The notes beneath the pieces are model-generated. The model worked only from the letters and a program-made list of their open reading frames with translations. It made no database searches and had not been told where the DNA came from. Of a DNA stretch of 64,000 bases, positions 24,418 through 43,601 are shown piece after piece. A program made the position numbers and the translations under genes. The stretch comes from Kordiimonas pumila (GTDB lineage Bacteria > Pseudomonadota > Alphaproteobacteria > Sphingomonadales > Kordiimonadaceae), in the NCBI RefSeq assembly GCF_015240255.1, contig NZ_CP061205.1, forward strand, positions 1,819,501 to 1,883,500, read 5' to 3'. Numbering within the stretch: the stretch's first letter is position 1; every line of letters starts with the position of its first letter.

Positions 24418-24433
24418 TTGACCAAAAGGTCAG
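24418..24433. promoter_or_regulatory. RutR-like operator before deoC
   Basis: TTGACCAAAAGGTCAG matches 12 of the 14 fixed positions of the published E. coli RutR consensus TTGACCANNTGGTCAA. It contains the perfect inverted pair TGACC/GGTCA. It lies 37 bp before the deoC start, and its left half could also act as a -35 box (TTGACC). A RutR-like protein is encoded at 42948. Confidence 0.6.
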
Positions 24434-24469
24434 GTTCTGACTTTCTACAGCTTGATTTGGTTTGACGGA

Positions 24470-25444
24470 ATGGTGATGCCTACGATGAACAGCGATAATG
24501 CGATAAACAGGGGTACTGGGTTTGAAGCTAGCTGGCTTGATGGTATTCGTGTTAATAAAAGTGCAGTTGAGCGCCGGGTTGGTAGCCTTGGTGGCAGGCG
24601 TGCCGTCAAGAAAGAGGCACAGATAGCCTTTATGCTGAAGGCTATAAGCTGTATTGACCTAACAACACTTGCCGGTGATGACACGCCAGACCGTGTGAAG
24701 CGCCTTTGCCATAAGGCCGCGAACCCTGTTCGTCGCGGTATTATGGAAGCACTAGGTGCGGGGGATATATGCCTGACCACTGGTGCTGTTTGTGTGTATC
24801 ACGAAATGGTGCCTACGGCTGTTACAGCCCTCAAGGGCACAGGCGTGCCGGTTGCGGCTGTCTCTACCGGTTTTCCAGCTGGCCTTGCACCCATGGAAAC
24901 CCGTCTAGAGGAAATCAAGCGTTCTGTCGCGGCTGGCGCAAATGAAATTGATATTGTTGTTACACGCGCCCATGTGCTGTCTGGCAACTGGGAAGCGCTA
25001 TACAATGAAGTGAAAGCCTTTAAGGCCGCGTGCGGCCCGGCGCTCATGAAATCTATTCTGGCAACGGGTGAGCATGGTAGTTTCACACAGGTCGCGAAGG
25101 CCTCGATGACGGCCATGATGGCGGGCGCTGATTTCATTAAAACATCAACGGGTATGGAAGGTGTGAATGCAACACTGCCAGTGTCCTTGGTGATGCTTAG
25201 GCAAATTCGTGATTTTTACGAGCGCACCGGCCAAATGGTTGGCTACAAGCCCGCTGGCGGCATTAAAACCGCGAAGGATGCTGTCATGTACCTAACGTTG
25301 GTGAAGGAAGAACTCGGCCGCGCGTGGCTGGAACCAGCACTGTTCCGTTTTGGTGCCTCCAGTTTGCTCGGCGACCTTGAACGTCAGCTCGAATATCATG
25401 CAACCGGCGGCTATTCTGCCAGTTACAGACATGCAATAGGGTAG
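24470..25444 (+). CDS. deoC: Deoxyribose-phosphate aldolase
   Basis: The enzyme splits 2-deoxyribose-5-phosphate into glyceraldehyde-3-phosphate and acetaldehyde. The protein has 324 residues, the longer alphaproteobacterial/animal-like form rather than the 259-residue E. coli one. Motifs are EIDIVV, the Schiff-base Lys in FIKTSTGMEG (Lys about 224) and the second Lys in GYKPAGGIKT (Lys about 260). The start is uncertain: ATG 24470, 24476 and 24485 are all in frame, and none has a strong ribosome binding site. ALDH16 follows 9 bp later and DUF924 after that, one operon downstream of a RutR-like box. Confidence 0.93.
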   Translation: MVMPTMNSDNAINRGTGFEASWLDGIRVNKSAVERRVGSLGGRRAVKKEAQIAFMLKAISCIDLTTLAGDDTPDRVKRLCHKAANPVRRGIMEALGAGDICLTTGAVCVYHEMVPTAVTALKGTGVPVAAVSTGFPAGLAPMETRLEEIKRSVAAGANEIDIVVTRAHVLSGNWEALYNEVKAFKAACGPALMKSILATGEHGSFTQVAKASMTAMMAGADFIKTSTGMEGVNATLPVSLVMLRQIRDFYERTGQMVGYKPAGGIKTAKDAVMYLTLVKEELGRAWLEPALFRFGASSLLGDLERQLEYHATGGYSASYRHAIG

Positions 25445-25453
25445 GGAACGAAC

Positions 25454-27862
25454 ATGACCGTGAAAGAAAAATTTGAAAGCATGGATTATAGCCCCGCCCT
25501 TGAGAGCCGTACGGCAGCGGACGAGTGGCTGAAGGCTAACAAAGGCAAGTTTGGCTTGTTTATTGACGGCAGCTGGATAAAGCCAAAGGGCGCGAAAAGC
25601 TTTGCGACCTATGCCCCCGCAACGGGCGAAAAGCTGGCAGATATTACAAGCGCCAGACAGGCTGATGTAGATGCCGCCGTGCAGGCCGCCCGCACAGCAC
25701 AAGGTAAGTGGGCAGCGATCGGCGGGCACGGACGCGCGCGGTACCTTTATGCGCTTGCGCGGCTGGTGCAAAAGCATTCGCGTATTTTGTCTGTTGTTGA
25801 ATCGCTTGATAACGGCAAACCGATTAGGGAAAGCCGGGATATCGATATTCCGCTTGTGGCACGCCATTTATACCATCATGCCGGTTGGGCGCAGCTCATG
25901 GACGAAGAATTCCCTGAGCATGAGGCCATCGGCGTTGCAGGGCAAATTATCCCGTGGAATTTCCCGCTGTTGATGCTGGCATGGAAAATTGCACCGGCCT
26001 TGGCGGCCGGTAACACTGTGGTTCTGAAGCCTGCTGAGTTTACATCCTTGACTGCCCTGATGTTTGCTGACTTGTGCCTGGAGGCAGGCCTGCCCAAAGG
26101 CGTGGTGAACATCATCACGGGCGAGGGTGATGTGGGCGCAATGCTGGTAGATGCTGACGTTGATAAAGTCGCCTTCACGGGTTCTACTGATGTCGGCAAA
26201 ACCATCCGCCGTGCGATTGCTGGTAGTGGCAAAAAACTAACGCTCGAGCTTGGCGGTAAATCCCCCTTCATCGTGTTTGAGGATGCGGACATTGACGGCG
26301 CTATTGAAGGGCTTGTGGACGCTATCTGGTTCAACCAAGGGCAGGTGTGCTGCGCGGGTTCGCGTTTGCTGGTTCAGGAAGGCATTGCAGAGGCATTTTA
26401 TACCAAACTAAAGGCGCGCATGGCAAAACTGCGCGTGGGTCACAGCCTAGACAAATGCATTGATATGGGCGCGGTGGTGGACGGTGTTCAGAAAACCCGT
26501 ATTGAGGAACTGATCGCAAAAGGCAAGGCAGAAGGCGCGGATGTGCACCACGCCCCGTGCGATATGCCAGCGGGCGGCGTATTTTATCCGCCTACACTGG
26601 TGACAAGCGTCGGGACAGAGAACACGCTGTATATAGAAGAAGTATTTGGCCCCGTGTTGACCGCTATCACGTTCCGTACGCAGGCTGAGGCCGTGGGGCT
26701 TGCGAACAACACACGTTACGGCTTGGCGGCAACTGTCTGGTCAGAAAATATTTCCCGCGCATTAGAGGTTGCCCCGGCCCTGAAGGCTGGCGTGGTGTGG
26801 GTAAATGGCACCAACATGTTTGATGCCGCCGTTGGCTTTGGTGGATACCGTGAAAGCGGCTTTGGCCGCGAAGGCGGGCGCGAGGGCATGCTTGCTTATC
26901 TGAAGCCAAAATATGAACGCAAGCTAAAAGAATGGAAGCCTATAGTGGTGCCAGCGGCGCTGCCATTAAAGGCAGGCACCGGCATGCCGGGGGTGGACCA
27001 AACAGCAAAGAATTATATCGGCGGTAAGCAGGCACGGCCTGACGGCGGCGACAGTGTGGTAGTGTTAACCCACAAGGGCGCGCATGCGGGCTTGGTGGGT
27101 GCAGGCAACTATAAAGACATCCGTAATGCGGTAGAAGCTGCCACAAAAGCACAGCCCGGTTGGGCCGCGAGCACCGCGCATCTGAAGGCGCAAATCCTTT
27201 ATTATATTGCTGAAAACCTGAGCGTGCGGGCAGGTGAATTTGCCGCGCGCCTTACGGCGCTGACAGGCGCGAGTAAAAAAGCGGCTGAGGTTGAGGTTGA
27301 CCTCTCTATCAAACGGCTGTTTTCGGCGGCTGCAATGGCAGACAAGCATGACGGTAGCGTGCACCAGCCGCCGCTGCGCGGTGTTGCAATCGCCATGAAT
27401 GAGCCTGTTGGCACACTTGGCATTGTGTGCCCTGACGATGCGCCATTGCTGGCGTTCATTACGCTGACGGCATTTGCTGTTGCAGCGGGCAACACGGCGG
27501 TTGTGGTGCCCAGTGAGCGCTACCCGCTTTTGGCGACAGATTTTTACCAAATTTTAGAGACTTCAGACGTGCCAGCAGGGGTTATTAACATTGTCACCGG
27601 TAAACGGGACGAGATGGCAACGCCGCTCGCGAAACATTACGGTATAGAAGGCTTGTGGTATTTCGGTAGCCGCGATGGCTGCGCGAATGTGGAAGCGCTG
27701 GCGGCAGACAATATGAAACGCACATGGCTGAATTATGGTATGGCGTATGACTGGGCATCAGACAAACAAATGGCGGCCCGCAGCCTGATGGACCGGGCAT
27801 CAGAAGTGAAAAATATCTGGGTGCCATACGGTGACGCCAATGAAGGCGGCAAGAGTTATTAG
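25454..27862 (+). CDS. ALDH16-type aldehyde dehydrogenase with C-terminal pseudo-dehydrogenase domain
   Basis: The protein has 802 residues. The N-terminal half is a complete aldehyde dehydrogenase: IIPWNFP at 165-171, general base in LELGGKSP (Glu about 265), catalytic Cys 299 in FNQGQVCCAGSR, EEVFGPVLTAITF and FGGYRESGFGREGG. From about residue 515 a second, degenerate copy follows (IGGKQARP..., EPVGTLGIVCPDDAPLLAF, GVINIVTGKRDE) that lacks the catalytic Cys and the ELGG motif. This two-domain plan is the ALDH16 family. Bacterial members keep the active Cys, whereas the human ALDH16A1 has lost it. It sits between deoC and DUF924, so oxidising DeoC-derived acetaldehyde is the likely role, inferred from context. 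Confidence 0.93.
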   Translation: MTVKEKFESMDYSPALESRTAADEWLKANKGKFGLFIDGSWIKPKGAKSFATYAPATGEKLADITSARQADVDAAVQAARTAQGKWAAIGGHGRARYLYALARLVQKHSRILSVVESLDNGKPIRESRDIDIPLVARHLYHHAGWAQLMDEEFPEHEAIGVAGQIIPWNFPLLMLAWKIAPALAAGNTVVLKPAEFTSLTALMFADLCLEAGLPKGVVNIITGEGDVGAMLVDADVDKVAFTGSTDVGKTIRRAIAGSGKKLTLELGGKSPFIVFEDADIDGAIEGLVDAIWFNQGQVCCAGSRLLVQEGIAEAFYTKLKARMAKLRVGHSLDKCIDMGAVVDGVQKTRIEELIAKGKAEGADVHHAPCDMPAGGVFYPPTLVTSVGTENTLYIEEVFGPVLTAITFRTQAEAVGLANNTRYGLAATVWSENISRALEVAPALKAGVVWVNGTNMFDAAVGFGGYRESGFGREGGREGMLAYLKPKYERKLKEWKPIVVPAALPLKAGTGMPGVDQTAKNYIGGKQARPDGGDSVVVLTHKGAHAGLVGAGNYKDIRNAVEAATKAQPGWAASTAHLKAQILYYIAENLSVRAGEFAARLTALTGASKKAAEVEVDLSIKRLFSAAAMADKHDGSVHQPPLRGVAIAMNEPVGTLGIVCPDDAPLLAFITLTAFAVAAGNTAVVVPSERYPLLATDFYQILETSDVPAGVINIVTGKRDEMATPLAKHYGIEGLWYFGSRDGCANVEALAADNMKRTWLNYGMAYDWASDKQMAARSLMDRASEVKNIWVPYGDANEGGKSY

Positions 27863-27871: not shown

Positions 27872-28411
27872 ATGCGGTATGAGGATGTACTCTATTTTTG
27901 GTTTCAGGAAGCGGGCGTAGAGGCATGGTGGAAGAAATCAAAAACATTTGATGATCATGTGCGCCGCAGGTTTTTATCTGTGTATGAAAAAGCTGCTAAG
28001 GGCGAACTGTGGCAGTGGCGCGAAAGCCCAAGGGGGCGGCTTGCAGAAATTATTATTCTGGATCAGTTCCCAAGAAACATGTTTCGAGATACCCCAAAGT
28101 CATTTGCGACAGATTCGATTGCTCTTGTACTGGCACAGGAAGCTGTGCATGTGAAAGCAGACACTAGCCTAACGCCCGCAGAAAAACAGTTTCTCTATAT
28201 GCCTTATATGCATAGTGAAAGCCTAAGCACACATGATGTAGCCGTAAAGCTTTATTCAGCGCCGGAGCTGGTAAGTAACCTTGATTTTGAGCATAGGCAC
28301 CGAGACATCATTGCTCGTTTTGGTCGCTACCCGCACAGGAATGCTATTCTTGGCCGCGTCAGTACTGTTGAGGAAATTGCTTTTCTCAAGGAGCCGGGCA
28401 GTAGTTTTTAA
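27872..28411 (+). CDS. DUF924 family protein
   Basis: The protein has 179 residues. It begins YEDVLYFWFQEAG and contains WWKKSKTFDDHVRRRF, LAEIIILDQFPRNMFRDTP, FLYMPYMHSESLSTHD and FGRYPHRNAILGR, all typical of the DUF924 family (PF06041), a helical TPR-like fold with no established function. ATG 27872 has GGAGTAAGG just upstream and is 9 bp after the ALDH16 stop, so it is the third gene of the deoC operon. It is convergent with punA, 33 bp away. Confidence 0.88.
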   Translation: MRYEDVLYFWFQEAGVEAWWKKSKTFDDHVRRRFLSVYEKAAKGELWQWRESPRGRLAEIIILDQFPRNMFRDTPKSFATDSIALVLAQEAVHVKADTSLTPAEKQFLYMPYMHSESLSTHDVAVKLYSAPELVSNLDFEHRHRDIIARFGRYPHRNAILGRVSTVEEIAFLKEPGSSF

Positions 28412-28444: not shown

Positions 28445-29266
28445 TCATCCCACTTCCTGAATGAAGGCGCGCAGTAACTTATCGAGGTCTACTGCTGCTT
28501 TGGCACCGTATTCCATTGTCTCGTGGTGGGTTAGTTCGCCCGCAACCATCCCCGCAGCATAATTGGTGATGCTGCTGATGCCGCACACTTTCATGCCCAC
28601 ATGGCGGGCCACTAAGCATTCTGGCACGGTTGACATGCCCACGGCGTTTGCGCCCATGGTTCTGAAAGCGCGAATTTCGGCGGGTGTCTCAAAATTTGGC
28701 CCCTTTGCCATCAGATACACGCCTCTATGGAGCTTAAGGCCCAGCTTGTTTGCGCACTGGAAAAATACATCCGTTAGCGCTTTGTTCCATGCCTCTGACA
28801 TATCAGGGAACCGCACGCCGAAGCGGTCATCATTGACACCCACAAGCGGGTTAACGCCCGCAAAATTAATATGGTCAGTGATTGCCATCAAGCTGCCGGG
28901 GCCAGCGGCTTCATCAAGACTGCCAGCGGCGTTTGTTAGCACCAGTGTTTTAACACCGAGCGCCCAAAGAACCCGCACAGCATACCCAAGTTTTTCTTCC
29001 GGGTGGCCTTCATAGGCGTGTGCGCGGCCCTGCATGCAAATAACAGGTTTGCCTTCAAGGGTGCCTATCAGCATACGGCCAGCATGGCCTTGCACAGTAG
29101 GCTTTGGAAAGCCGGGCAGGTCAGCATAAGAAAATACTGTCGCATTCTCGACTGTGTCAGCAAGGTCATTCAGGCCGCTGCCAAGCACCATGGCAACCTT
29201 GGGAATAGCACCTTTGAACTGGGTTTTAATGTGGGTAGCGCAGGCCTGAACAGCTTCAAATGTCAT
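28445..29266 (-). CDS. punA: Purine nucleoside phosphorylase, trimeric type
   Basis: The enzyme cleaves inosine and guanosine (and deoxy forms) with phosphate to give the base and (deoxy)ribose-1-phosphate. The protein has 273 residues. Phosphate-binding VLGSGLNDLAD is near 27-37, and GRAHAYEGHP, LTNAAGSLDE, AKGPNFETPAEIRAFRTMGANAVGMSTVPE and ITNYAAGM cover the base-binding site. These are the signatures of the PNP/MTAP trimeric family (PunA/XapA). Third gene of the upp-phosphoribosyltransferase-punA operon, 23 bp after its neighbour. Its sugar product would feed DeoB. Confidence 0.95.
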   Translation of the reverse strand: MTFEAVQACATHIKTQFKGAIPKVAMVLGSGLNDLADTVENATVFSYADLPGFPKPTVQGHAGRMLIGTLEGKPVICMQGRAHAYEGHPEEKLGYAVRVLWALGVKTLVLTNAAGSLDEAAGPGSLMAITDHINFAGVNPLVGVNDDRFGVRFPDMSEAWNKALTDVFFQCANKLGLKLHRGVYLMAKGPNFETPAEIRAFRTMGANAVGMSTVPECLVARHVGMKVCGISSITNYAAGMVAGELTHHETMEYGAKAAVDLDKLLRAFIQEVG

Positions 29267-29289: not shown

Positions 29290-29844
29290 TCAAATATCGA
29301 TTTCAGGCAGGTCAAGCCCTTTGAATTCGCGAATTTCGTCTTTGCTCATGTCAGCAAGCTCATGCGGGAACACGAGCCAGTCGTCTGTTTCATGGCAGAA
29401 AAAGTCTGGCGTTAGGTTTGTTACATTCCGCAAGGGCTTATAGAAAACAGTAGCTATTTTAATGGTCTCTGGCGTGTTGCGGCGGCAGCGTAGGTGCAAA
29501 TGTTCCACAATCGCGGCAATGGAGCGGCCACTATCAAACACATCATCAACAATAAGCAGGCTGTCTTCTGCGTTGATGTTTTTAATAATATATTCTAGTC
29601 CGTGAACTTTCACTTCTTTTTGCTGCTGCATTCCAATGTAGCTGGACGTGCGAATGGAGATATGGTCAGTATGGACACCGTAATAATCCATAATTTCCTG
29701 TACTGCGATACCGGTTGGGGTGCCGCCGCGCCAAACGCCGACAATAAACTTGGGGCGGAAATCACTTTGCAGGATTTTAAGGCCAAGCTGGAACGAATCG
29801 TCTAGCAGTTCCTGCGCAGTTACATACTTTTTTACAACAGTCAT
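29290..29844 (-). CDS. Purine phosphoribosyltransferase (hypoxanthine/guanine or xanthine type)
   Basis: The protein has 184 residues from the ATG complementary to 29842-29844. An open frame further upstream would overlap upp and has no ribosome binding site, whereas AAAGGGG precedes the chosen start. The type I PRTase fold is shown by FIVGVWRGGTPTGIAVQE and the PRPP-binding motif LLIVDDVFDSGRSI, followed by FYKP and the C-terminal DDWLVFPHE hood segment. The latter is typical of Hpt/Gpt enzymes, which make IMP, GMP or XMP from bases. It is 4 bp after upp and before punA, which supplies hypoxanthine and guanine. Exact base preference is not readable. Confidence 0.82.
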   Translation of the reverse strand: MTVVKKYVTAQELLDDSFQLGLKILQSDFRPKFIVGVWRGGTPTGIAVQEIMDYYGVHTDHISIRTSSYIGMQQQKEVKVHGLEYIIKNINAEDSLLIVDDVFDSGRSIAAIVEHLHLRCRRNTPETIKIATVFYKPLRNVTNLTPDFFCHETDDWLVFPHELADMSKDEIREFKGLDLPEIDI

Positions 29845-29848
29845 ATAG

Positions 29849-30487
29849 TTAAACCCCTTTAGTGCCAAACAGCCTGTCACCAGCATCGCCAAGACCCGGT
29901 ACTATATATGCCTTTTCATTCAGCTTTTCGTCAATGGCTGCTGTGATAATGGGTACATCTGGGTGCGCCTCTGTTAAGGCTTTTAGCCCTTCGGGTGCAG
30001 CCAGTAGGCAAACAAAGCGTACATCCTTTGCCCCGGCGTCTTTTATTTCCTGAACGGCGCGAATAGCGCTGTGGCCTGTTGCGAGCATGGGATCCAGTAT
30101 CACATTAACGCGGGACGCCGTGTCTTGCGGCACCTTGAAGAAATATTTGGTGGGCATAAGGGTTTCTTCATCGCGCGCGAGGCCAATTTGGCCAACACGG
30201 GCAGAGGGCACCAGCTCGAGCATGGGGCCAAGCAAGCCATCTCCCGCGCGCAGCACTGAAATGAAGGTTAGCTTTTTGCCAGCAAGTACTGGCGCTTCCA
30301 TCGTGCATACTGGGGTTTCGATCTGGATTCGCCCAAGGGGCAGGTCACGCAGGGCCTCATACCCCAGAAAAAGGCCAATCTCGCGCAGCAATGTTCTAAA
30401 CTCGGATGTGCTGGCTTCTTTTCTGCGTAACAAAGTTAGTTTATGTTGAACCAGTGGGTGATCTACAACAGTAACGGATTTAGTCAT
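29849..30487 (-). CDS. upp: Uracil phosphoribosyltransferase
   Basis: The enzyme makes UMP from uracil and PRPP. The protein has 212 residues, the normal length. Motifs are [54 protein letters not shown], the PRPP site [21 protein letters not shown] and [16 protein letters not shown] with the uracil-binding C-terminal loop. First gene of the three-gene minus-strand salvage operon. Divergent from the nucleoside importer, with a RutR-like site in the shared promoter. A uracil-responsive regulator would make sense here. Confidence 0.96.
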
Positions 30488-30558: not shown

Positions 30559-30574
30559 TTGACTAAAGTGTCAA
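30559..30574. promoter_or_regulatory. RutR-like operator between upp and the nucleoside importer
   Basis: TTGACTAAAGTGTCAA has perfect TTGAC/GTCAA arms and matches 11 of 14 fixed positions of the RutR consensus. On the minus strand its right arm reads TTGACA and could overlap a -35 box for upp. It lies 71 bp from the upp start and 92 bp before the BMP gene, so one site could control both directions. Confidence 0.55.
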
Positions 30575-30666: not shown

Positions 30667-31671
30667 ATGAAGAAATTATGTAAACGCCTAGGGCTTGGAA
30701 TTCTGCTAGCGACTTCAGGAATAGCCCCTTCTTTTGCCGAAGGTTTTGCCCCTGTACTTCTATACGATATTGGCGGCAAATTTGATAAATCGTTTAATGA
30801 AGCAGCTTACAGAGGCGCTGACAGGTTTACTGTAGAAACAGGCACGGCCTATCACGATTTTGAGCCAGCAAGTGAAACCCAGTATGAGCAAGCGCTTAAG
30901 CGGTTTGCACGCAAGAAGGCAAGCTTGATTGTTGCCGTGGGCGTTGGCTATTCGGTTGCAGTGCGTAATGTGGCTGCAAAATACCCTGATGTAAAATTTA
31001 CTGTGATTGATGCGGTGATTAATGCCCCCAATGTGCAGTCTATCACATTCAAGGAAAATGAAGGTTCATTTCTTGTCGGTATGATTGCAGCTATGAAAAC
31101 AGAAACCGGGGCAGTGGGGTTTATTGGCGGTATGGATATTCCCCTTATTCGCCGGTTTGAGCATGGCTACAGGCAAGGTATTCGCTATGTAGCGCGGGAC
31201 GATGTGAAGATTATAGAAAACTATGTAGGCACAACCCCCTCGGCATGGAATGACCCCATTAAAGCATCAGAGCTTGCCAGATCGCAGTATGCCCGGGGCG
31301 TTGATGTCGTTTTTGCTGCAGCAGGGCCATCAGGCCTTGGTGTTATTCAGGCGGCAAAAGAAAGCGGCAATTATGCGATTGGTGTGGATAGCAACCAGAA
31401 CCATGTGGCGCCAGGTACAGTATTAACCAGCATGTTAAAACGTGTAGACCTTGCTGTGTATAAAGCGATGCTGGCAGGTAAAAATGGCACATGGGCTGCA
31501 GGCCATACCGTGATGGACCTAGCGGCAGGCGGTGTAGACTATGCTGTTGATAGTAATAACGAGGCACTGATCACCGATGCTATACGAAAACGGCTGGAAG
31601 AGGCCCGGGCTAAAATTATCAAAGGGGAAATTATTGTCGGCGATGTTGAAGGCAGTAATACAAGCCACTAA
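30667..31671 (+). CDS. BMP-family nucleoside-binding protein of ABC importer
   Basis: The protein has 334 residues with a signal peptide ending SFAEG (about 25) and no lipobox Cys. The BMP/PnrA family is shown by VLLYDIGGKFDKSFNEAAYRGA at the ligand site, followed by VGVGYSVAVRNVAAKYPDVKFTVID, KENEGSFLVGMIAA, GFIGGMDIPLIRRFEHGYRQG and AAGPSGLGVIQAAKE. Relatives bind purine and pyrimidine nucleosides. It is followed by a double ATPase and two permeases with 0-4 bp gaps, a complete importer. ATG 30667 has GGAG 8 bp upstream. Confidence 0.92.
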   Translation: MKKLCKRLGLGILLATSGIAPSFAEGFAPVLLYDIGGKFDKSFNEAAYRGADRFTVETGTAYHDFEPASETQYEQALKRFARKKASLIVAVGVGYSVAVRNVAAKYPDVKFTVIDAVINAPNVQSITFKENEGSFLVGMIAAMKTETGAVGFIGGMDIPLIRRFEHGYRQGIRYVARDDVKIIENYVGTTPSAWNDPIKASELARSQYARGVDVVFAAAGPSGLGVIQAAKESGNYAIGVDSNQNHVAPGTVLTSMLKRVDLAVYKAMLAGKNGTWAAGHTVMDLAAGGVDYAVDSNNEALITDAIRKRLEEARAKIIKGEIIVGDVEGSNTSH

Positions 31672-31674: not shown

Positions 31675-33240
31675 ATGATGACAACAGCAAGTGAACATAC
31701 CTTTGCTATTGAAACATGCGACCTTTCCAAAAGCTTTGGGGCCGTTAAGGCAAATGATCGCATAAGCCTGAAAATTAAAAAAGGTGATGTACACGGCATT
31801 GTAGGGGAAAACGGTGCTGGTAAATCGACACTTCTGAAAATGTTGTTTGGGTTTTACAGGCCTGATAGTGGCAGTATTCTTGTGAATGGGGATGACACAG
31901 AGTTTAAATCTCCCTCTGCTGCCATGAAACGAGGTATTGGCATGGTACACCAGCACTTTATGCTGGTTGAAACATTCACTGTTCTGGAAAATATTATTTT
32001 AGGGGCTGAGGGCAGCAGCAAGCTAGGCTTGGCAAAACAAAAGGCTCGCACTGAGTTATTGAAGCTTGAACAACAATTTGGGTTTAATCTTCCGCTTGAT
32101 AGTGTAGTGGCTGACTTGCCTGTTGGAACGCGGCAACGGGTGGAGATTTTAAAGGCACTATACCGTGGTGCTGAAATTCTAATTCTTGATGAACCAACGG
32201 CGGTTTTAACACCGCAGGAATGTGACCAGCTTTTTAGCCTGATCAGGCAATTGAAGGCTGATGGAAAAACCGTACTTTTTGTAACCCATAAGCTGCATGA
32301 AATTATGGCTGTAACAGATGCTGTCACAGTTATGCGGGCAGGGCAGGTTGTGTCAGAACATGTGACCGCTGAAACATCGGCCGAGGTACTGGCTGAATGT
32401 ATGGTGGGCGCAAAGGTAACACGGCAAGTGATGCGTGCGGGAACCAGCCATTATATTCCGCGCCTAAAGCTTGATGATGTTAGCATGATAAGCGGTAGCG
32501 GCAGTTGCGCGCTGAAAAACATATCATTTGAGGTTTCAGACGGCGAAGTTCTAGGAGTGGCGGGTGTTGCTGGGAACGGCCAAACAGAGCTGCTTGAAGC
32601 AATAACAGGTTTAAATACCATTTCGAGCGGTGTCATAACTTTTTCAGGAAATGTTATAGCGCAGAATAATGCAGCGCTAAGCCCTATTATGCTACGCCGT
32701 ATGGGGATGGCCCATGTAGCAGAGGACAGACAGAAAACAGGCATGGTGGAAGCCATGTCTGCGGAAGAAAATATTATTCTTGGCTACCAACGGGACATAA
32801 GTATTTCGCGCTTTGGTGTGCTACGTAAAAAAGCGATTGCTGAAAGTGCGATAACCTGTTTCGAAAACCAAGATGTGCGCCCCAGAAATACAGCCTTGCA
32901 AGCAGGGCGGTTTTCAGGGGGCAACCAGCAAAAAATTGTTATCGCGCGGGAGCTTATGCATGAACCCGTTTTGCTTGTGATCGGGCAGCCCACCAGAGGG
33001 GTGGATATTGGCGCCGTTACTAAAATTCATGACCAGCTTACGGCCCTTCGAAATGCAGGCAAAGCTGTGCTTGTTGTCTCTGCTGATCTTGATGAGCTGC
33101 TTGCCATTTCAGATCGCATCGCGGTTATGTCTGAAGGCGAAATAACCGGCATTGTTAATGTGGAGGATGCTGACGAGCAAACGCTGGGGCTGATGATGGC
33201 TGGTGAGCGCCTATCCAGTATTAGGAAAGGCTCTGCCTGA
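31675..33240 (+). CDS. Nucleoside ABC importer ATPase (two nucleotide-binding domains)
   Basis: The protein has 521 residues with two ATPase halves. The first has an intact Walker A (GENGAGKSTLL), Walker B ILDEPTAVLT and a switch His (VTHKLHE), but its signature is the degenerate PVGTRQR. The second has the degenerate Walker A GVAGNGQTELL, a good signature FSGGNQQK and VIGQPTRGVD where the catalytic Glu is replaced by Gln. This asymmetric pattern is normal for the NupA/YufO branch of sugar-like (RbsA-type) ATPases that import nucleosides. It starts 3 bp after the binding-protein stop, and its stop shares bases with the next gene. Confidence 0.93.
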   Translation: MMTTASEHTFAIETCDLSKSFGAVKANDRISLKIKKGDVHGIVGENGAGKSTLLKMLFGFYRPDSGSILVNGDDTEFKSPSAAMKRGIGMVHQHFMLVETFTVLENIILGAEGSSKLGLAKQKARTELLKLEQQFGFNLPLDSVVADLPVGTRQRVEILKALYRGAEILILDEPTAVLTPQECDQLFSLIRQLKADGKTVLFVTHKLHEIMAVTDAVTVMRAGQVVSEHVTAETSAEVLAECMVGAKVTRQVMRAGTSHYIPRLKLDDVSMISGSGSCALKNISFEVSDGEVLGVAGVAGNGQTELLEAITGLNTISSGVITFSGNVIAQNNAALSPIMLRRMGMAHVAEDRQKTGMVEAMSAEENIILGYQRDISISRFGVLRKKAIAESAITCFENQDVRPRNTALQAGRFSGGNQQKIVIARELMHEPVLLVIGQPTRGVDIGAVTKIHDQLTALRNAGKAVLVVSADLDELLAISDRIAVMSEGEITGIVNVEDADEQTLGLMMAGERLSSIRKGSA

Positions 33241-35323: not shown

Positions 35324-35324
35324 G

Positions 35325-35747: not shown

Positions 35748-37083
35748 TAAAGGGTTTTTGCCGCAAGAGGTTATTCGTTTAAAGCGTGACGGGGCTGAAC
35801 TCTCTGCGGTTGATATTCAAAATTTTGTCGCGGGCATAACAGATGCTGCTGTATCAGATGCTCAGATTTCTGCTTTTGCCATGGCGGTGTTTTTTAATGG
35901 TATGACCCCAGCAGAGGGTGCAGCGCTTACACTTTCCATGCGCGATTCTGGTTCTGTTATTAACTGGCAGAATTATGGCTTTGATGAAGGTGCACCAATC
36001 ACAGACAAGCACTCCACTGGCGGCGTTGGTGATAAGGTTAGTTTGATGCTTGCCCCAATAGTTGCAGCGTGCGGTGGTTTTGTGCCGATGATTTCAGGGC
36101 GCGGCCTTGGGCATACCGGTGGCACACTTGATAAATTTGAGGCTATTCCCGGTTATAACCCATACCCATCTATTGAAGACTTTGCCAAAACAGTCAAAAG
36201 GGTGGGGTGTTCTATTATTGGCCAAACAGGCAGCCTTGCACCAGCGGACAAGCGTTTTTATAGCGTGCGCGATGTGACGGCAACGGTTGAATCAATACCC
36301 TTGATTACAGCGTCTATCCTCTCAAAAAAGTTAGCGGCAGGCCTTGGGTCTCTGGTGATGGACGTAAAGTTTGGTTCTGGGGCATTTATGGCGAATTTTG
36401 AGAAAGCAAAAGAACTCGCTGAAAATATTGTGCGGGTTGCCAATAGGGCAGGTACGCCGACAACTGCGGTTATGACAGACATGAATGCTGTTCTGGGGCG
36501 TACAGTTGGTAATGCAGTTGAAGTTATTGAATCTGCGGAGTTTCTGATAAACACCAAAGAAGCAGATACGCGCCTTGTCGAGGTAACACTGGAGCTTGCA
36601 GCCCATATGCTTGTGGTGTCAGGCAGGGCGGGCGATCTAGACACGGCTAAAAGCTCAGCGAAGGCCGCACTTGATAGCGGGCGGGCGGCAGAGGTTTTTG
36701 CAAAAATGGTGGCAGCGCAAGGTGGTCCTAGTGATTTCATGGAAAAATACACGGTATATTTACCCGTTACTGATACACTAAAGGTTATACCGGCCAAGCG
36801 TTCTGGTTATGTAACTGCAATGGATGCTAGAGCGGTTGGTATGGCTGTGGTTGCACTTGGCGGTGGCCGAACAGATCCTGCTCAATCTATTAACCATGCG
36901 GTGGGTTTTAAAGGTTTTTGTCAGATTGGTGACTGGGTAGAGAGCGGTGAACCTCTGGCCTATGTGTATGCCGATACAGAAATGGCGGCGGAGCAGGCGA
37001 CCCATACTATACAAAAGGCAGTGCAGCTGTCTGACCAAGCCCCGCAGAAAATGCCTGTTGTGGCACAGATTATAAGGGAGTAG
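35740..37083 (+). CDS. deoA: Thymidine (pyrimidine-nucleoside) phosphorylase
   Basis: The enzyme cleaves thymidine, deoxyuridine and perhaps uridine to base and sugar-1-phosphate. The protein has 447 residues from ATG 35740. The signature DKHSTGGVGDKVSLMLAPI binds phosphate. SGRGLGHTGGTLDKFEAIPGY, QTGSLAPADKRFYSVRDVTATVESIPLI and MDVKFGSGAFM cover the pyrimidine site. It is of normal length and all family blocks are present. It overlaps cdd and is followed 3 bp later by deoB, giving the order cdd-deoA-deoB. Confidence 0.96.
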   Translation: MANKGFLPQEVIRLKRDGAELSAVDIQNFVAGITDAAVSDAQISAFAMAVFFNGMTPAEGAALTLSMRDSGSVINWQNYGFDEGAPITDKHSTGGVGDKVSLMLAPIVAACGGFVPMISGRGLGHTGGTLDKFEAIPGYNPYPSIEDFAKTVKRVGCSIIGQTGSLAPADKRFYSVRDVTATVESIPLITASILSKKLAAGLGSLVMDVKFGSGAFMANFEKAKELAENIVRVANRAGTPTTAVMTDMNAVLGRTVGNAVEVIESAEFLINTKEADTRLVEVTLELAAHMLVVSGRAGDLDTAKSSAKAALDSGRAAEVFAKMVAAQGGPSDFMEKYTVYLPVTDTLKVIPAKRSGYVTAMDARAVGMAVVALGGGRTDPAQSINHAVGFKGFCQIGDWVESGEPLAYVYADTEMAAEQATHTIQKAVQLSDQAPQKMPVVAQIIRE

Positions 37084-37086: not shown

Positions 37087-38307
37087 ATGGCACGCGCTTT
37101 TATTCTTGTCCTTGACAGTTTTGGTATTGGTGCCGCACCTGACGCTGGCACATTTGGTGACACAGGTGCCGACACACTGGGCCATATTGCGGCTTGGTGT
37201 GCCGCTGGTGGCACAGCAGTTGAACGCCCGAATGCTAGCCCATTGCATTTACCTGTTATGGCAAAACTTGGCCTTGGGAAAGCTGCAGAACTGGCAACAG
37301 GAGCCGTGCCTGTTGGGCTTGAAACAGATACCGGTATTACAGGGTTTTATGCAGCGTGTGCAGAACAGTCATATGGTAAGGATACACCATCCGGGCACTG
37401 GGAGATGGCAGGGTTGCCTGTCTTGTTTGAATGGGGCTATTTCCCCCCAGAATACCCAAGTTTTCCAGAACAGTTACTGAGTAGCCTCTGTGATCGCTGT
37501 GGCTTGCCGGGGGTGCTTGGTAATAAAGCAGCGTCGGGCACTGTTATTCTTGACGAGTTGGGCATGGAGCATATCGCGACAGGCAAGCCCATAGTTTACA
37601 CGTCAGCGGACAGTGTGATGCAAATAGCCGCACATGAAAAATACTTTGGCCTTGAGCGGTTGCTTGCTGTGTGCGAGGTCGCACGCGAGCTTGTGGACGA
37701 GTATAATATAGGACGTGTTATTGCGCGGCCTTTTGTGGGAGAAAATGGTCATTTTGACCGTACAGGCAACCGCCGCGATTATGCAACGCCGCCCCATGCA
37801 CCAACGCTACTTGAAAAACTTGCCGGTGCAGGCAGAGAGGTTATTTCTGTCGGGAAAATCGCTGATATTTTTGCCCATAAAGGCTTGACCAGAAAAGTGA
37901 AAGCAAACGGTCTTGATGGCCTTTTTGATATTACCCTTGAGATGCAAAAAGAAGCCCCTGATGGCTCGCTCACCTTTGTGAACTTTGTAGACTTTGACCA
38001 GTCATTTGGCCACCGGCGCAATGTTGCGGGGTATGCCGCAGCGCTTGAGTATTTTGATAAACGCTTGCCTGAGTTTATGGCGGCAATGAAGCCGGATGAT
38101 ATTATGATTTTAACGGCGGATCATGGCTGTGATCCAACATGGCCGGGAACAGACCACACTCGCGAGCATGTGCCCTTTATTGGATACGGCCCTGCATTTC
38201 CTGTTGGTAGCGGCGGTGTTCGTAAAAGTTTCGCAGATATCGGGCAAACTGTTGCCAGCCATTTGGGAATAGCGCCGCTTGAATACGGTGCAAGTGTCAT
38301 AAAGTAA
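37087..38307 (+). CDS. deoB: Phosphopentomutase
   Basis: The enzyme converts (deoxy)ribose-1-phosphate to the 5-phosphate, the substrate of DeoC. The protein has 406 residues of alkaline-phosphatase fold. Metal ligands are in [14 protein letters not shown] and [23 protein letters not shown]. The phosphorylated Thr is in [12 protein letters not shown], and [16 protein letters not shown] is also present. It follows deoA by 3 bp and precedes a secreted nuclease by 12 bp. It links the phosphorylases (DeoA, PunA) to the deoC operon. Confidence 0.96.
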
Positions 38308-38319: not shown

Positions 38320-39102
38320 ATGTTTTTTTTCCGCACCGTTTTGTTGTTAGGAACCATGTTTTTGAGTTCGGGAAGCTTGCAGGCTTATGGGCCTACGGGT
38401 CACAGGGTTATTGCAGCGATTGCGGAAAAGCACCTAACACCCCAAGCGAGAACTGCTGTAGACGCCATTCTGGGCGATACTTTTATGGCAGAGGCTGCTT
38501 TCTGGCCAGATGAAATGAAGTCAAGCCCTGATCCATTTTGGCGCACAGAATCGTACACTTACCATTTTATAAATTTTCCCGACGGCGTTACATATGAAGA
38601 AAGTGAAAAGAACCCGGCGGGGGATGCCTATACGGCTCTTGAAAAATATACGGCAGTCCTTAAAGACACCACTGCAGCACAAGAGGAACGCTATAAAGCG
38701 CTCGCATTTGTATTACATATCGTGGGGGACCTGCACCAGCCACTTCATGCCGGGCGCGCAGAAGACTGGGGTGGTAATAAAATTCAGGTGGTATGGTTTG
38801 AGGAAATGACCAACCTGCATATGGTGTGGGATGAACATCTTATAGATCATAAAAAGCTGTCTTATTCAGAGTGGACGGCATTTCTTGATAAGAAGATAAC
38901 CCCAGAAGAAATCGCCGTGTGGCAAAACAGTACCCCGCTCACATGGGTGCATGAACTGGCTGCTATGCGGGGTGATATATATGCAAACGGGAAAGGCATT
39001 TTATCGTGGGACTATGTCTATCAAAATACACCCCTGCTTAAAAGCCAGCTCTCAAAGGGGGGGATTCGGCTTGCAGGCTATTTGAATGCAATTTTCAAGT
39101 AA
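38320..39102 (+). CDS. Secreted S1/P1-type nuclease
   Basis: The protein has 260 residues with a signal peptide ending LQAYG (about 22-23). This family cuts single-stranded DNA and RNA and can remove 3'-phosphates using three zinc ions. Ligand motifs are seen in order: GPTGHRVIAAIAE, AAFWPDEMK, YTYHFINFP, HIVGDLHQPLHAG, DWGGNKIQVVW and LHMVWDEHLI. Most family members begin the mature chain with a Trp zinc ligand, and here the predicted mature end is near Tyr-Gly-Pro, a small deviation. Co-transcription with deoB suggests that it supplies nucleotides for the import pathway. Confidence 0.92.
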   Translation: MFFFRTVLLLGTMFLSSGSLQAYGPTGHRVIAAIAEKHLTPQARTAVDAILGDTFMAEAAFWPDEMKSSPDPFWRTESYTYHFINFPDGVTYEESEKNPAGDAYTALEKYTAVLKDTTAAQEERYKALAFVLHIVGDLHQPLHAGRAEDWGGNKIQVVWFEEMTNLHMVWDEHLIDHKKLSYSEWTAFLDKKITPEEIAVWQNSTPLTWVHELAAMRGDIYANGKGILSWDYVYQNTPLLKSQLSKGGIRLAGYLNAIFK

Positions 39103-39476
39103 AACGCAGAGCGAATCAGCCTCACCGTTTTCCCGGTTATGCCAAAAGAAACACCAGTGAGCTCTAGTTTAGGGGTTTTGTGACATATATATGACATATA
39201 TGTGTCATTCGCTTCCCGATTGCACTGTTATAGCCCTGAAATATTCTTGATTTCCTGACTTTTTCGTCAAAAAATCAAATCCTGACGGTTTCGTCAAAAA
39301 ACTGAAAAAAAAGAAGCCTAAAAACAGTTTTGCACGTGTAAGGGGGATTCTTACATGAATATTGACTTTTTGGTCAATATTTACCCCCTAACAGGTATGC
39401 GCGAGGAACTTATTGATTTGATTGTGCACAACCGGGCAAGGGGTCCAGTGTGCTTATTGCTTTTGGGAGCTAGGGA
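39103..39476. promoter_or_regulatory. Promoter region of the Oar-like receptor with three RutR-like boxes
   Basis: This 374-bp gap contains three TGAC-N6-GTCA palindromes. Two are in 20-bp direct repeats at 39255-39274 and 39282-39301 (shared frame CTGAC-NN-TTTCGTCAAAAAA). The third is at 39358-39381, with perfect 9-bp arms AATATTGAC and GTCAATATT. The third matches 12 of 14 fixed RutR positions and lies just after a weak promoter (TTGCAC 39330-39335, TACATG 39352-39357). Further upstream, TGACATATATA/G is directly repeated at 39181-39202. No gene is apparent in the gap. Confidence 0.6.
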
Positions 39477-42400
39477 ATGAAACGCCAATTTAGAGCTGCA
39501 CTATGTACTAGTGTTGCGCTCGCCGCTATGTCGGCAAGTGTACCTGTCATTGCACAGGAAATTACATCGTCTATTCGAGGTACTGTTACAAATGAGGCAG
39601 GCACACCACTTGCTGGTGAAACAGTGTCTGTTACAGATACACGCACGGGCGCTACTAAAACTGTTAATACAAATGATTCTGGCGCTTTTAGCATTAGAAG
39701 CCTTGGTGTTGGTGGCCCATTTACAATTCGTGTTGTTTCTGAAAAATACCAAAACTCTACTATTACAGATGTTTATACAGGTCTGGCAGGGGCTAGCAGT
39801 TTCAATATCGTACTCGCTGAGGCAGATGCGGATGTTGAAGAAATTTCTGTTGTCGCTCAAAAGCTCACCCAGACAACTGTTGCTGTAGGCCCAAGCTCTT
39901 CTTTTGGAATTGAAAAGATTGAAGGTATGCCTTCTATCAGCCGTCAGGTGCGCGATGTTGTTCGGCTTGACCCACGGGTAAGCATTGGCCGCTCTAGTGG
40001 TGGCGATGGTTATGGCATTAACTGTATCGGTGGTAACAACCGTTCCAACTCATTTACTATTGATGGTGTGCGCAGCGCTGATGGCTTTGGCCTTAACGCT
40101 TCTGGCAACCTTGCACGTAATACATTCCCTATACCTTTTGATTCAATGCAAGCTGCTTCTGTTGAATTTGCACCCATCAGTGTAGAGTACGGCCAGTTTA
40201 CAGGTTGTAATGTGAATGTCGTTACAAAGTCTGGTACTAATGAATTCCACGGTTCTGCATTCTATGTTTACAATGATGGCGGCTTAACAGGCACAAAGCT
40301 TGACGGTGATGTTGTTCGCACTGAACCTTTTACAGACAAGAACTGGGGTGCTGAGCTTGGTGGCCCAATTATTAAAGACAAATTATTCTTCTATGTTTCT
40401 TATGAAGAAACCAAAGGTGCCGACAACCAGAATACTGGCCCAGCAGGTGCTGGTTTTGCGAATGACGAAGAAATAACTCTTGATGAAGCCAATCAGATTA
40501 GTGACATTCTTTCTGCGAACTATGGCCGTGATACACTTGGTCTAATGACGACACTTCCAGAAACAAGCACACGTTACTTTGCTAGAATTGACTGGAATCT
40601 GAATGATAACCATCGGTTGGCAGCAACATATGCTCGTTTGGAAGAAGAAAATGTAGAGCCGGATGATTTTGGCTTTGGCGGCTTTACATTCGGTGATAAC
40701 TTTGAAGTTGAGGGTTCTGAATCTAATACATATTCCGTTCGTTTGTTCTCTGATTGGACCGACAACTTCTCCACAGAAATTCGCCTGTCACGTAATGAGG
40801 TTACTGACCTTCAGGATCCTTTAGGTGGCGGTGAAGCACAAGACAATAATATCCCGAGGATCGAAGTTGAAGATGGTGCTGGTAACGTGTTCTTCACGAG
40901 TGGACCGGGTGAATTTCGTAGTGCAAACGGGTTAAACTATACACTTGATCAGGTAAAGGTTGCTGGTGATTATGTTGCCGGGGATCATACAATTTCATTT
41001 GGGTATGAACTTGATAAACTTGAGGTTTATAACCTGTTCGTTTCAAATGGTACTGGTACGATAACTTTTGATGACATTGCTGCTCTTGAAGCTGGTCTGG
41101 CCAGTTCAATTAGTGGCTACGGCTCATTCAGTGGTGATATTAATGATGCCGCTGCACGCTTTAAGCGTAGTATTCACTCTCTTTATGCACAAGATGAGTG
41201 GCAAGTTAATGATGCCCTAACATTTACTGCTGGGGTGCGCTATGATTGGTATTCTTCAAGCGATGTACCAACAGAAAGCCAAGCCTTCGTAGACCGTTAT
41301 GGTTTCTCAAATGCTGTTGGTTTTAGTGGACTTGATGTTTTGATGCCGCGTGTTGGTTTAACGTATGTTCTGCCGGAAGATACGTTTGGTGATACAAAAA
41401 TATCAGCAGGCTTTGGTATCTTCTCAGGCGGTGACCCTACCGTATGGTTCTCAAATGCTTTCTCTAACTTTGGAAGCGCTGTAGGCTTTGGTAGCTCGTC
41501 CGGGGCAGGGTGCGATGTATCTGATCTGCAGGTCCTAAATGGTGGCTCGTTCACTGGTATTCCAGATTGTATTGCGGCACAGCAACAGGCTGATGCTTTA
41601 GCTGGTACTGGCCGGATTGATGCCGTTGATCCTGACCTCAAGCTTGCTACACAGCAGCGCTGGAGCTTGGGTATTGCACATTACACGCAGGATACTGGTT
41701 CTGACTTCTTTGATAATTGGGATATCAAGTTAGACTTAATCTACAGCAAAACTAAAAATGCCTTTGATTTTGTTGATCTGACACTTTCACCAAATGGCAC
41801 AACATTGCCTGATGGACGTGACCAGTTATTTGCGGTTGATCCCTTACTTGCTGGTTGTAATGCAGTATTTGTTGGACCACGGACAGGCTTTTCAAATGCC
41901 GATCCTGTTCTATGTAATGCGGGCGGTGATGATCAGGATATTCTTCTGACCAACACTGACAAAAGTGGTTCAACCAAATCGCTTTCACTCCAGTTCTCTA
42001 AGAACTTTGAAATTTCTGACAGGACATTCTTTGATTTCAGAATGGGGTATGCTTACACCGATGCAACCAATGCTAATCCCGGTAATAGCTCTACTGCTAC
42101 ATCAGGGTTTGAAGAAGTTGCGCTTGCACAAATCAACTACCCTACAGTTGGACCAGCTCAATATGCGAACAAGCATAATATTGTGATTGCAGGTACTTTG
42201 GATCATGATTTTGTTGAGGATTACACCACAAGTGTGAGCTTCTTCTTTAGAGCACGTTCTGGCCGTCCATTTAGCTATGTGTATGATAACAATACACCTA
42301 CTACACTGTTCGGTGATTCAGATAATGAAGAGCGGAACCTGTTTTATGTGCCAACAGGAGCAAATGACCCACTGGTAGACTTTTCTGCACTGGAAGCTGC

Positions 42401-42827
42401 AGGTACACTCGATGATTTCTTCGAGTTTCTTGATGCTTCTGGCCTGAGCAACTATGCAGGTGAAATTGCACCCAGAAACGGTTTTGAGCAAAACTGGTCA
42501 ACAGATCTCGATATACGTTTCCAGCAAGAGCTGCCAACATTCTTCGAGGGCCACAAGCTTGAGCTGTTTGTTGACTTTGAAAATATCTTGAATTTGCTGG
42601 GTAATGGTAAAAATATTCAGAGGTACGCAGACTTTGGTGACGTTGGTGAAGGTGTTCCTATCCTTGACGCGGCTTTAAATGCTGATGGCTCACAGTATGT
42701 TTACTCTAACTTTAATCCTGGTAACTCTAGCGCAGCACTTAGTGAGCTTGGTTATAATGTTAATAACCAAATTGATGTAGACGATTCACTGTGGCGCATT
42801 CAGGTTGGTATTAAATACAAATTCTAA
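39477..42827 (+). CDS. Oar-like TonB-dependent receptor with N-terminal carboxypeptidase-regulatory-like domain
   Basis: The protein has 1116 residues. A signal peptide ends VIAQ (about 27). Residues about 30-110 form a CarboxypepD_reg-like beta-sandwich (SSIRGTVTNEAGTPLAGETVSV, GAFSIRSLGVGGPFTIRV). The plug follows (VEEISVVAQKLTQT, SRQVRDVVRLDPRVSIG, SNSFTIDGVRSAD, SVEFAPISVEYGQFTGCNVNVVTKSGTNEFHG), and then a large barrel ending IQVGIKYKF. This is the Oar group of TonB receptors. The gene lies between the nucleoside catabolic operon and a RutR-like regulator, and has three RutR-like sites in its promoter. I infer that it imports nucleosides, nucleotides or oligonucleotides across the outer membrane. 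Confidence 0.9.
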   Translation: MKRQFRAALCTSVALAAMSASVPVIAQEITSSIRGTVTNEAGTPLAGETVSVTDTRTGATKTVNTNDSGAFSIRSLGVGGPFTIRVVSEKYQNSTITDVYTGLAGASSFNIVLAEADADVEEISVVAQKLTQTTVAVGPSSSFGIEKIEGMPSISRQVRDVVRLDPRVSIGRSSGGDGYGINCIGGNNRSNSFTIDGVRSADGFGLNASGNLARNTFPIPFDSMQAASVEFAPISVEYGQFTGCNVNVVTKSGTNEFHGSAFYVYNDGGLTGTKLDGDVVRTEPFTDKNWGAELGGPIIKDKLFFYVSYEETKGADNQNTGPAGAGFANDEEITLDEANQISDILSANYGRDTLGLMTTLPETSTRYFARIDWNLNDNHRLAATYARLEEENVEPDDFGFGGFTFGDNFEVEGSESNTYSVRLFSDWTDNFSTEIRLSRNEVTDLQDPLGGGEAQDNNIPRIEVEDGAGNVFFTSGPGEFRSANGLNYTLDQVKVAGDYVAGDHTISFGYELDKLEVYNLFVSNGTGTITFDDIAALEAGLASSISGYGSFSGDINDAAARFKRSIHSLYAQDEWQVNDALTFTAGVRYDWYSSSDVPTESQAFVDRYGFSNAVGFSGLDVLMPRVGLTYVLPEDTFGDTKISAGFGIFSGGDPTVWFSNAFSNFGSAVGFGSSSGAGCDVSDLQVLNGGSFTGIPDCIAAQQQADALAGTGRIDAVDPDLKLATQQRWSLGIAHYTQDTGSDFFDNWDIKLDLIYSKTKNAFDFVDLTLSPNGTTLPDGRDQLFAVDPLLAGCNAVFVGPRTGFSNADPVLCNAGGDDQDILLTNTDKSGSTKSLSLQFSKNFEISDRTFFDFRMGYAYTDATNANPGNSSTATSGFEEVALAQINYPTVGPAQYANKHNIVIAGTLDHDFVEDYTTSVSFFFRARSGRPFSYVYDNNTPTTLFGDSDNEERNLFYVPTGANDPLVDFSALEAAGTLDDFFEFLDASGLSNYAGEIAPRNGFEQNWSTDLDIRFQQELPTFFEGHKLELFVDFENILNLLGNGKNIQRYADFGDVGEGVPILDAALNADGSQYVYSNFNPGNSSAALSELGYNVNNQIDVDDSLWRIQVGIKYKF

Positions 42828-42857
42828 ACTGAAGTGTATTTAATACTTTAAACACTA

Positions 42858-42886
42858 CTACGCCCGAGGGTTTACCTCGGGCGTAG
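42858..42886 (+). terminator. Strong GC-rich hairpin after the Oar-like receptor
   Basis: Perfect 12-bp arms CTACGCCCGAGG (42858-42869) and CCTCGGGCGTAG (42875-42886) with a 5-nt loop lie 30 bp after the receptor stop. The following sequence is only mildly T-rich. It probably terminates or attenuates the receptor transcript before the regulator gene. Confidence 0.65.
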
Positions 42887-42947
42887 GCGTTTCAGGGATG
42901 GACAGATACATAATTACGCATTATTAGGTTCACGCGTGAGGTGAGGA

Positions 42948-43601
42948 ATGACAAAAGTTCAGAAGGTCGAAACTGCTCATAAGGCAGGTATTCGGCGTGA
43001 AAACGAAGCAAAAATCCTAGCTGCGGCAGAGAGTGTTTTTGCGGAAAAAGGCTTTAAAGGCGCAAGTGTTGGCCTAATTGCCGAGCGCGCTGGCGTGCCT
43101 AAACCAAATGTCTATTATTATTTCGGTGCTAAAATTGACCTTTACCGCCGTGTTGTTGAAGATGTGTGCTCTATCTGGCTTCGTGCCGCGGACCTTTTTG
43201 ACGAAACAGAAGACCCTAAAACCGCTGTTAAAATGTATGTCAGTTCCAAGATGGATCTAGCACGTATGCGCCCACATGGTTCGCGCCTGTGGGCGATTGA
43301 AATGGCAAGTGGTGCCCCTTTCATTCAGGATTATTTGCGCGATACGGTAAAGCCTTGGCTAGAGAGCCGCGAGGCAGTGCTGAAACGCTGGATCAGTGAA
43401 GGTAAGCTGGCGCCGATTGAGTCCCGCTACCTGTTTTTTATGATTTGGGCTACAACCCAGCACTATGCAGATTTTGAAGCCCAAATTATTGCCATGAATG
43501 ATGGTTCACCGCTGTCTAATGAGCAGTTTGACAAGGCGAAAGAAACAGTGATTAAGCTTGTGGTGGCCAGCTTGAACCTTGAGCCTGACACTGAATCCTA
43601 G
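42948..43601 (+). CDS. rutR: RutR-like TetR-family regulator
   Basis: The protein has 217 residues. The helix-turn-helix reads AESVFAEKGFKGASVGLIAERAGVPKPNVYYYFGAK. The ligand domain contains ASGAPFIQDYL and APIESRYLFFMIWATTQHYADF, very close to the corresponding stretch of E. coli RutR (APIDPQHLIFMIWASTQHYADF as I recall it), which binds uracil and thymine. RutR represses or activates pyrimidine genes through a TTGACCANNTGGTCAA operator. Matching sites occur in this window before deoC, between upp and the ABC importer, and before the Oar-like receptor. The gene ends in a 4-bp convergent overlap with the next one. No rut operon is present in the window. Confidence 0.82.
   Translation: MTKVQKVETAHKAGIRRENEAKILAAAESVFAEKGFKGASVGLIAERAGVPKPNVYYYFGAKIDLYRRVVEDVCSIWLRAADLFDETEDPKTAVKMYVSSKMDLARMRPHGSRLWAIEMASGAPFIQDYLRDTVKPWLESREAVLKRWISEGKLAPIESRYLFFMIWATTQHYADFEAQIIAMNDGSPLSNEQFDKAKETVIKLVVASLNLEPDTES

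Follow-up and report, generated by a model that had tools for sequence, protein, structure and literature searches.

The window analysed here is a 64,000-nucleotide stretch of contig NZ_CP061205.1 from Kordiimonas pumila. It holds genes for nucleoside salvage and breakdown, a BMP/PnrA-type ABC importer, an S1/P1-type nuclease, an Oar-type TonB-dependent receptor and a TetR regulator, together with six short palindromes (Table 1). The membrane protein encoded ahead of deoC gave no match in Pfam or NCBIfam and nothing credible in the PDB, and its single-sequence model reached a pLDDT of 40. By eye it is transporter-like; it has 15 relatives at 59-72% identity, and at 26 of 30 deoC loci its gene comes before deoC, whether or not the genome has the regulator.

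Table 1. Genes and operator-like sites of the cluster, in window coordinates; bits given for sites are weight-matrix scores.
Feature	Position	Strand	Basis and remarks
tdk, thymidine kinase	20560..21147	-	NCBIfam NF003300, 296 bits vs cut-off 195
Operator-like palindrome in tdk	20937..20950		TTGACAAAAAGGTCAA with flanks; 24.5 bits
Adenosine-deaminase-like protein	21243..22790	+	PF00962; start chosen by eye; N-terminus resembles signal peptide
Conserved membrane protein	22812..24413	+	No family match; 533 residues
Putative operator	24419..24432		deoC upstream region; 25.3 bits; 22/22 genomes
deoC, deoxyribose-phosphate aldolase	24452..25444	+	TIGR00126 over cut-off; exact start unsure
Aldehyde dehydrogenase	25454..27862	+	Aldehyde dehydrogenase models, two matched stretches
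DUF924 protein	27872..28411	+	PF06041
Purine-nucleoside phosphorylase	28445..29266	-	NF006054 over cut-off
Phosphoribosyltransferase-like protein	29290..29892	-	PF00156 over gathering score
upp, uracil phosphoribosyltransferase	29849..30487	-	NF001097 over cut-off
Putative operator	30560..30573		Between divergent upp and BMP importer; 23.5 bits; 19/20 genomes
BMP/PnrA-type substrate-binding protein	30667..31671	+	PF02608, 213 bits
ABC importer ATPase	31675..33240	+	
ABC importer permease	33240..34352	+	
ABC importer permease	34352..35323	+	
cdd, cytidine deaminase	35265..35747	+	NF004064 over cut-off; start probably further in
deoA, thymidine phosphorylase	35728..37083	+	TIGR02643 over cut-off
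deoB, phosphopentomutase	37087..38307	+	TIGR01696 over cut-off
S1/P1-type nuclease	38320..39102	+	PF02265, 202 bits
Putative operator	39256..39269		Before receptor; extra copy in this genome; 20.9 bits
Putative operator	39283..39296		Upstream member of conserved receptor pair; 20.7 bits
Putative operator	39363..39376		Downstream member of receptor pair, +80 bp; 21.8 bits
Oar-type TonB-dependent receptor	39477..42827	+	CarboxypepD_reg, Plug, barrel domains; modelled TonB-receptor fold
RutR-family TetR regulator	42948..43601	+	TetR_N + TetR_C_3; five uracil-contact residues

A preliminary description of this DNA had listed five intergenic TGAC-N6-GTCA palindromes, one before deoC, one between upp and the importer and three ahead of the receptor. 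All five lie exactly where they were placed and outside genes, but the list was incomplete, as a sixth copy sits within tdk. Six copies in the window compare with a mean of 0.46 in shuffled sequence, and 0 of 100 shuffles reached that number. In the whole genome, a single contig of 4.04 Mb, there is no enrichment either of the bare core (55 matches versus 59 for the reversed control) or of TTGACN6GTCA (11 forward and 15 reverse versus control counts of 21 and 26). We therefore rejected the bare core as evidence, since alone it proves little, and it is the clustering that carries weight. Set against background density, as the preliminary description had proposed, the core does not rise above its control, and what stands out is the clustering of its extended form and of high matrix scores. 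The form with A/T tracts, TGACNAAANNGTCA, has 9 exact matches in the 4.04 Mb, 6 of them inside this 18.4 kb, and when one mismatch is allowed it is rarer than in the control (47 versus 74-76 matches). Likewise, 6 of the 21 distinct TTGACN6GTCA places found on either strand of the genome belong to the cluster.

A weight matrix was built from 56 sites drawn from other genomes only, with duplicates removed within each of three promoter groups. Scored with this matrix, the six cluster sites were the top six in the window (20.7 to 25.3 bits, the next position reaching 11.2), and 20 Markov shuffles yielded none. The matrix consensus, TCTTGACCAATTGGTCAAGA, fits the box recognised by RutR, whose operator consensus has the form TTGACCANNTGGTCAA; apart from TGAC and GTCA, which follow from how the sites were picked, the letters of the matrix consensus were free to vary. 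Sequences of the CTTGACCAAATGGTCAAG type, as in the RutR consensus, occur among the deoC sites of relatives, and the best match in a scored E. coli stretch lay in the rutA-rutR gap, at 12.9 bits. In the Kordiimonas genome itself we scored all 21 TTGACN6GTCA places, the first 15 places matching the core and another three stretches. Among the places scored, two outside the cluster are as high: 996038 (24.8 bits; L135:3039-3052), which lies upstream of a small bacterioferritin-associated-ferredoxin-like (bfd-like) ORF, as judged by eye, and of a bacterioferritin-like gene, and 820127 (22.5 bits; L134:3128), between two convergent genes. These two, and the weaker 2778082 and 1362172, were not taken as regulon members, as none has a recognised nucleoside gene next to it.

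Of 30 genomes searched, 22, including that of the window, carry the regulator clade, and in these the sites recur before orthologous genes. An exact core was found within 330 bases upstream of deoC in all 22, of the BMP gene in 19 of the 20 that have this gene, and of the receptor in 21 of 22, where chance would give approximately 0.005 per region; the two exceptions, in G079 (BMP gene) and G058 (receptor), have one-mismatch sites. The deoC sites lie 24-221 bases before the matched gene start and have spacers that by eye are poorly conserved, and those of the BMP gene lie 94-188 bases upstream of the matched start, ahead of a conserved GGTTGACC block. Two or more exact sites stand before 17 of the 22 receptors, and a single one before 4 more. 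Where there are two or more, the last two are separated by 79-83 bases in 16 cases and by 90 in the other, or about eight helical turns. Assignment of -10 and -35 elements from the alignments was not convincing. None of the 8 genomes without the regulator clade has the deoC site; among these 8, G038 and G031 have more distant RutR relatives (38-41%), and in G034 the DeoC match is itself distant (34%). In a tree of 29 genomes, all but G034, the presence of the regulator and that of the deoC site change once, together, which weakens their co-occurrence as independent evidence; it is consistent with a regulon, but amounts to a single event.

The site inside tdk encodes the peptide VDLFVK, and we first thought it a likely by-product of coding, a reading that was dropped on a codon test. 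From 19 stretches taken, 13 had an alignable tdk, 7 of them with the site and 6 lacking both peptide and site. With the window gene included, all eight aligned tdk genes with VDLFVK have the site, so that choosing genes by site or by peptide gives the same set. For the codon test the window gene was compared with six of the seven other site-bearing genes (L245, nearly identical to L244, was left out). In these 7 diverged genes the codons for D, F, V and K at the site are invariant, whereas only 12 of 125 invariant tdk residues keep a single codon (M and W left out), and no other invariant five-residue stretch has more than two fixed codons, save one that overlaps the site by four residues. We read the site as a candidate operator within the gene, apparently kept for its DNA letters.

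The regulator contains TetR_N (52.8 bits) and TetR_C_3 (151.7 bits) domains, both over their gathering scores, and its best matches among solved structures are the E. coli RutR entries. The near-identity to the RutR ligand domain that had been claimed for it applies to one stretch (MIWATTQHYADF versus MIWASTQHYADF) and does not extend to the whole protein, which falls below the curated RutR cut-offs of TIGR03613 (180.4 versus 368 bits) and NF011584 (158.9 versus 230 bits). The residues that contact uracil in RutR are W77, Y97, W167, Q171 and Q179 (PMC10891134, Fig. 5 legend). All five are present in the window regulator and in 15 of 15 close relatives aligned; position 77 is L or I in the 7 Pseudomonas and Marinobacterium cousins aligned, and a basal relative (L034) has E at 179. 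The recognition-helix stretch also resembles that of E. coli RutR. Relatives within the clade share 61-79% identity, and named carriers of close relatives include Kordiimonas gwangyangensis, K. marina and K. aquimaris. In all 22 genomes the regulator gene adjoins the receptor gene, and the gap upstream of the regulator gene itself holds no exact site. In one genome (G070) the regulator gene (L198) is reported with one internal TGA, which may represent recent decay or a sequencing error; the three promoter regions of this genome keep exact sites.

In a phylogenetic tree the Kordiimonas clade is supported at 99/97 and stands apart from E. coli RutR, which forms a long branch and clusters with a protein each from G038 and G031 (99/95). 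The label "RutR-type" given in the preliminary description suits the family membership and the uracil-contact residues, but the protein belongs to a sister clade and is not a RutR equivalog. Its proposal of one regulator over salvage, deoxyribose catabolism and the receptor draws support from site conservation, the matrix and the uracil-contact residues. Neighbourhoods elsewhere in the family are also informative. A RutR relative in G038 adjoins preA and a preT-like gene, and this genome, which has two RutR relatives outside the clade, carries GTTGACCAAATGGTCATT between upp and cdd. The protein basal to the clade (L034, from a MAG) is encoded divergently from a hydantoinase/carbamoylase-type amidohydrolase, with an exact site between the matched parts. 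In G031 the RutR-family gene closest to E. coli RutR shares a strand with ribokinase-like, iunH nucleoside-hydrolase and nupC-type genes (L269:4674-8518). Because of these neighbourhoods in G038, G031 and L034 the wider family looks like one of pyrimidine and nucleoside sensors, and the Kordiimonas clade has probably been rewired within that range. By eye, a P. aeruginosa cousin lies near genes resembling glyoxylate carboligase and its relatives.

We also searched for genes of pyrimidine ring breakdown. None of the 30 genomes has RutA above the cut-off, though 3 give weak matches, and a D-hydantoinase search of the window's own genome gave only matches under the cut-off. That genome has one full match to the DHO_dh family and one fragment under the cut-off. 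As a second DHO_dh-domain protein of approximately PreA size occurs in 11 of the 22 regulator-bearing genomes, ring reduction may exist in those. From the absence of RutA we infer that uracil and thymine serve here as signals and salvage substrates rather than as food, and the regulator probably senses one or the other as it is released by nucleoside catabolism.

Several other accounts of the palindromes deserve consideration. They could be ordinary -35 elements that are palindromic by chance, TTGAC being the -35 consensus and many sites holding it on the coding strand. We regard this as very improbable, as both half-sites recur at fixed spacing before three promoters in 19-22 genomes, against the small chance expectation per region given above, and one site lies inside tdk with conserved codons. 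It is also conceivable that a different regulator encoded elsewhere binds the palindromes and that the TetR gene is a mere neighbour. Binding by the TetR protein is a prediction, the gap before its gene holds no exact site and the co-occurrence of regulator and site reduces to one event on the tree; however, the constant adjacency to the receptor, the use by E. coli RutR of a box of the same form (by consensus and by the matrix match in the rutA-rutR gap) and the similar recognition helix make another regulator improbable. A further question is whether the regulator is an activator at certain promoters, such as that of the BMP operon, whose site stands upstream of a second conserved TTGACC, at the distance from the gene noted above and ahead of the GGTTGACC block. 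We think activation unlikely, given that a -35-like TTGACC lies within the deoC sites, in keeping with repression, and that the published account of RutR has it repressing rut and rutR and activating carAB indirectly (PMC10891134).

The receptor has the domains of the Oar type, namely PF13620, PF07715 (24.2 versus a threshold of 23.9) and PF25183. Its model (pLDDT 68) matched TonB receptors in Foldseek, the best being FusA at 11% identity, which indicates the general fold and nothing more specific. To learn what accompanies such receptors we took 36 chosen stretches of 19-20 kb around closer receptor relatives (30-57%), leaving out contig-end and several weaker matches, and as a control 20 stretches around weaker, partial matches taken as Oar paralogues (one of only 11 kb). 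A nucleoside gene from the same panel was found near 21 of 36 receptor relatives versus 1 of 20 paralogues (Fisher p 5.8e-5, for stretches that are not independent). The count becomes 22 of 36 if 5'-nucleotidase and AMP nucleosidase, added after looking, are included, and the panel genes are absent near the other 15. The gene sets vary and comprise deoB-deoA-cdd with upp-prt-pnp (G043 and G067), nupC-cdd with upp-tdk (G011), deoA-cdd with a BMP importer (G016), nupC with deoB and deoC (G027) and preA-preT (G031 and G026). In 13 loci of family f5 the set is nupC with a 2OG-Fe(II) oxygenase, followed in one of them (L289) by 5'-nucleotidase and AMP nucleosidase. The regulator clade was found in none of the 36 stretches, one of which (G031) has a 39% relative.

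Two features of these loci are noted in passing. The 2OG-Fe(II) oxygenase beside the Oar-type receptor and nupC (L289:7391-8314, and the equivalent position at 12 more f5 loci) is possibly a nucleoside or base oxygenase. At L270 (G031) and L272 (G026), the Oar relatives near preT/preA are accompanied by a second TonB receptor, and G031 also has a RutR-family gene there.

The excess of nucleoside genes beside receptor relatives points to nucleosides, nucleotides or oligonucleotides as the cargo, and the receptor probably brings these in. The regulon might be real and the receptor merely co-induced, with a cargo of peptides, proteins or a metal chelate that occurs alongside DNA or dead biomass. 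In its favour, the Oar protein of Myxococcus is described as secreting a protein (PMC11658791), and the best fold match, FusA, is a ferredoxin receptor. We consider this a tenable, if less favoured, reading, as nupC, cdd, deoA, upp, preA or 5'-nucleotidase lies next to the receptor relatives in several families, and much more commonly than next to Oar paralogues.

The best explanation of the cluster, and one that we consider likely, is a base-sensing RutR-family repressor acting on six sites, with a receptor that imports nucleosides, nucleotides or oligonucleotides. The TetR protein of the cluster would be the repressor and would bind TCTTGACC-N4-GGTCAAGA palindromes. When free of ligand it would occupy all six sites and keep low the expression of deoC and its aldehyde dehydrogenase, of the BMP importer together with cdd-deoA-deoB and the nuclease (perhaps also of the divergent upp side), of the receptor through an operator pair approximately 82 bp apart, and of tdk through its intragenic site. 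Given a supply of nucleosides or DNA, uracil and thymine would be set free by cytidine deaminase and thymidine phosphorylase; these bases would enter the conserved pocket and free the operators, so that a product of the pathway would report its substrate. The receptor would carry nucleosides, nucleotides or short oligonucleotides across the outer membrane, and the nuclease may trim nucleic acid before or after this step. A broader proposal, which we consider about as likely as not, concerns an Oar-type clade found in several alphaproteobacterial families. Its members would be TonB-driven outer-membrane importers dedicated to nucleosides, nucleotides or oligonucleotides, and in the Kordiimonadaceae the receptor would have passed to the control of a duplicated RutR relative that senses uracil or thymine and acts on deoxynucleoside catabolism too, via five promoter sites and the tdk-internal operator.

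On the evidence of sequence comparison, then, this appears to be a real, rewired RutR-family regulon that assigns a testable role to one clade of Oar-type receptors. To our knowledge the cargo is unknown for most large TonB-receptor families of marine bacteria, and we know of no established TonB-driven route for nucleosides; the wiring described here suggests what a poorly understood type of receptor carries. As the receptor clade, regulator, operator and likely signal can all be named, a small number of constructs would suffice to test cargo and control. The finding further suggests a pyrimidine sensor rewired away from ring breakdown and towards scavenging the components of DNA, for which the released base would act as a proxy. 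The top results of a literature search included no RutR regulon with a TonB receptor and no Oar-type nucleoside receptor, and joint RutR-type control of the import and breakdown of DNA building blocks and of an outer-membrane receptor appears not to have been described. The RutR regulons of RegPrecise, given as 68 regulators in 13 groups (PMC5343134), may overlap with ours.

Among known systems the closest is RutR of E. coli, with which the Kordiimonas regulator shares domain make-up, the five uracil-contact residues and operator form. Binding of RutR within genes is also on record (PMC9736018, citing Shimada 2008), like the tdk site here. The two differ in that the Kordiimonas protein belongs to a sister clade below both curated cut-offs, its sites stand before genes for deoxynucleoside breakdown, for a nucleoside-type importer and for a TonB receptor, no link to a rut operon was seen, RutA being below the cut-off or missing in all 30 genomes, and E. 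coli rutR has a site before its own gene whereas the Kordiimonas regulator has no exact one. In enterobacteria, where DeoR controls the deo genes, CytR and DeoR regulate deo and nucleoside uptake and thus the same kind of metabolic targets, but they are of other protein families. CytR is induced by nucleosides, cytidine and adenosine being its inducers (PMC4052901), whereas the Kordiimonas regulator likely senses the released base. Myxococcus Oar has the CarboxypepD_reg domain, plug and barrel in common with the receptor, whose neighbourhood and regulation point to nucleosides and not to protein secretion. Finally, the nucleoside-specific Tsx of E. coli would have the same proposed role of outer-membrane nucleoside entry, but Tsx is a porin (PMC11658791) and the receptor described here is of the TonB-driven kind.
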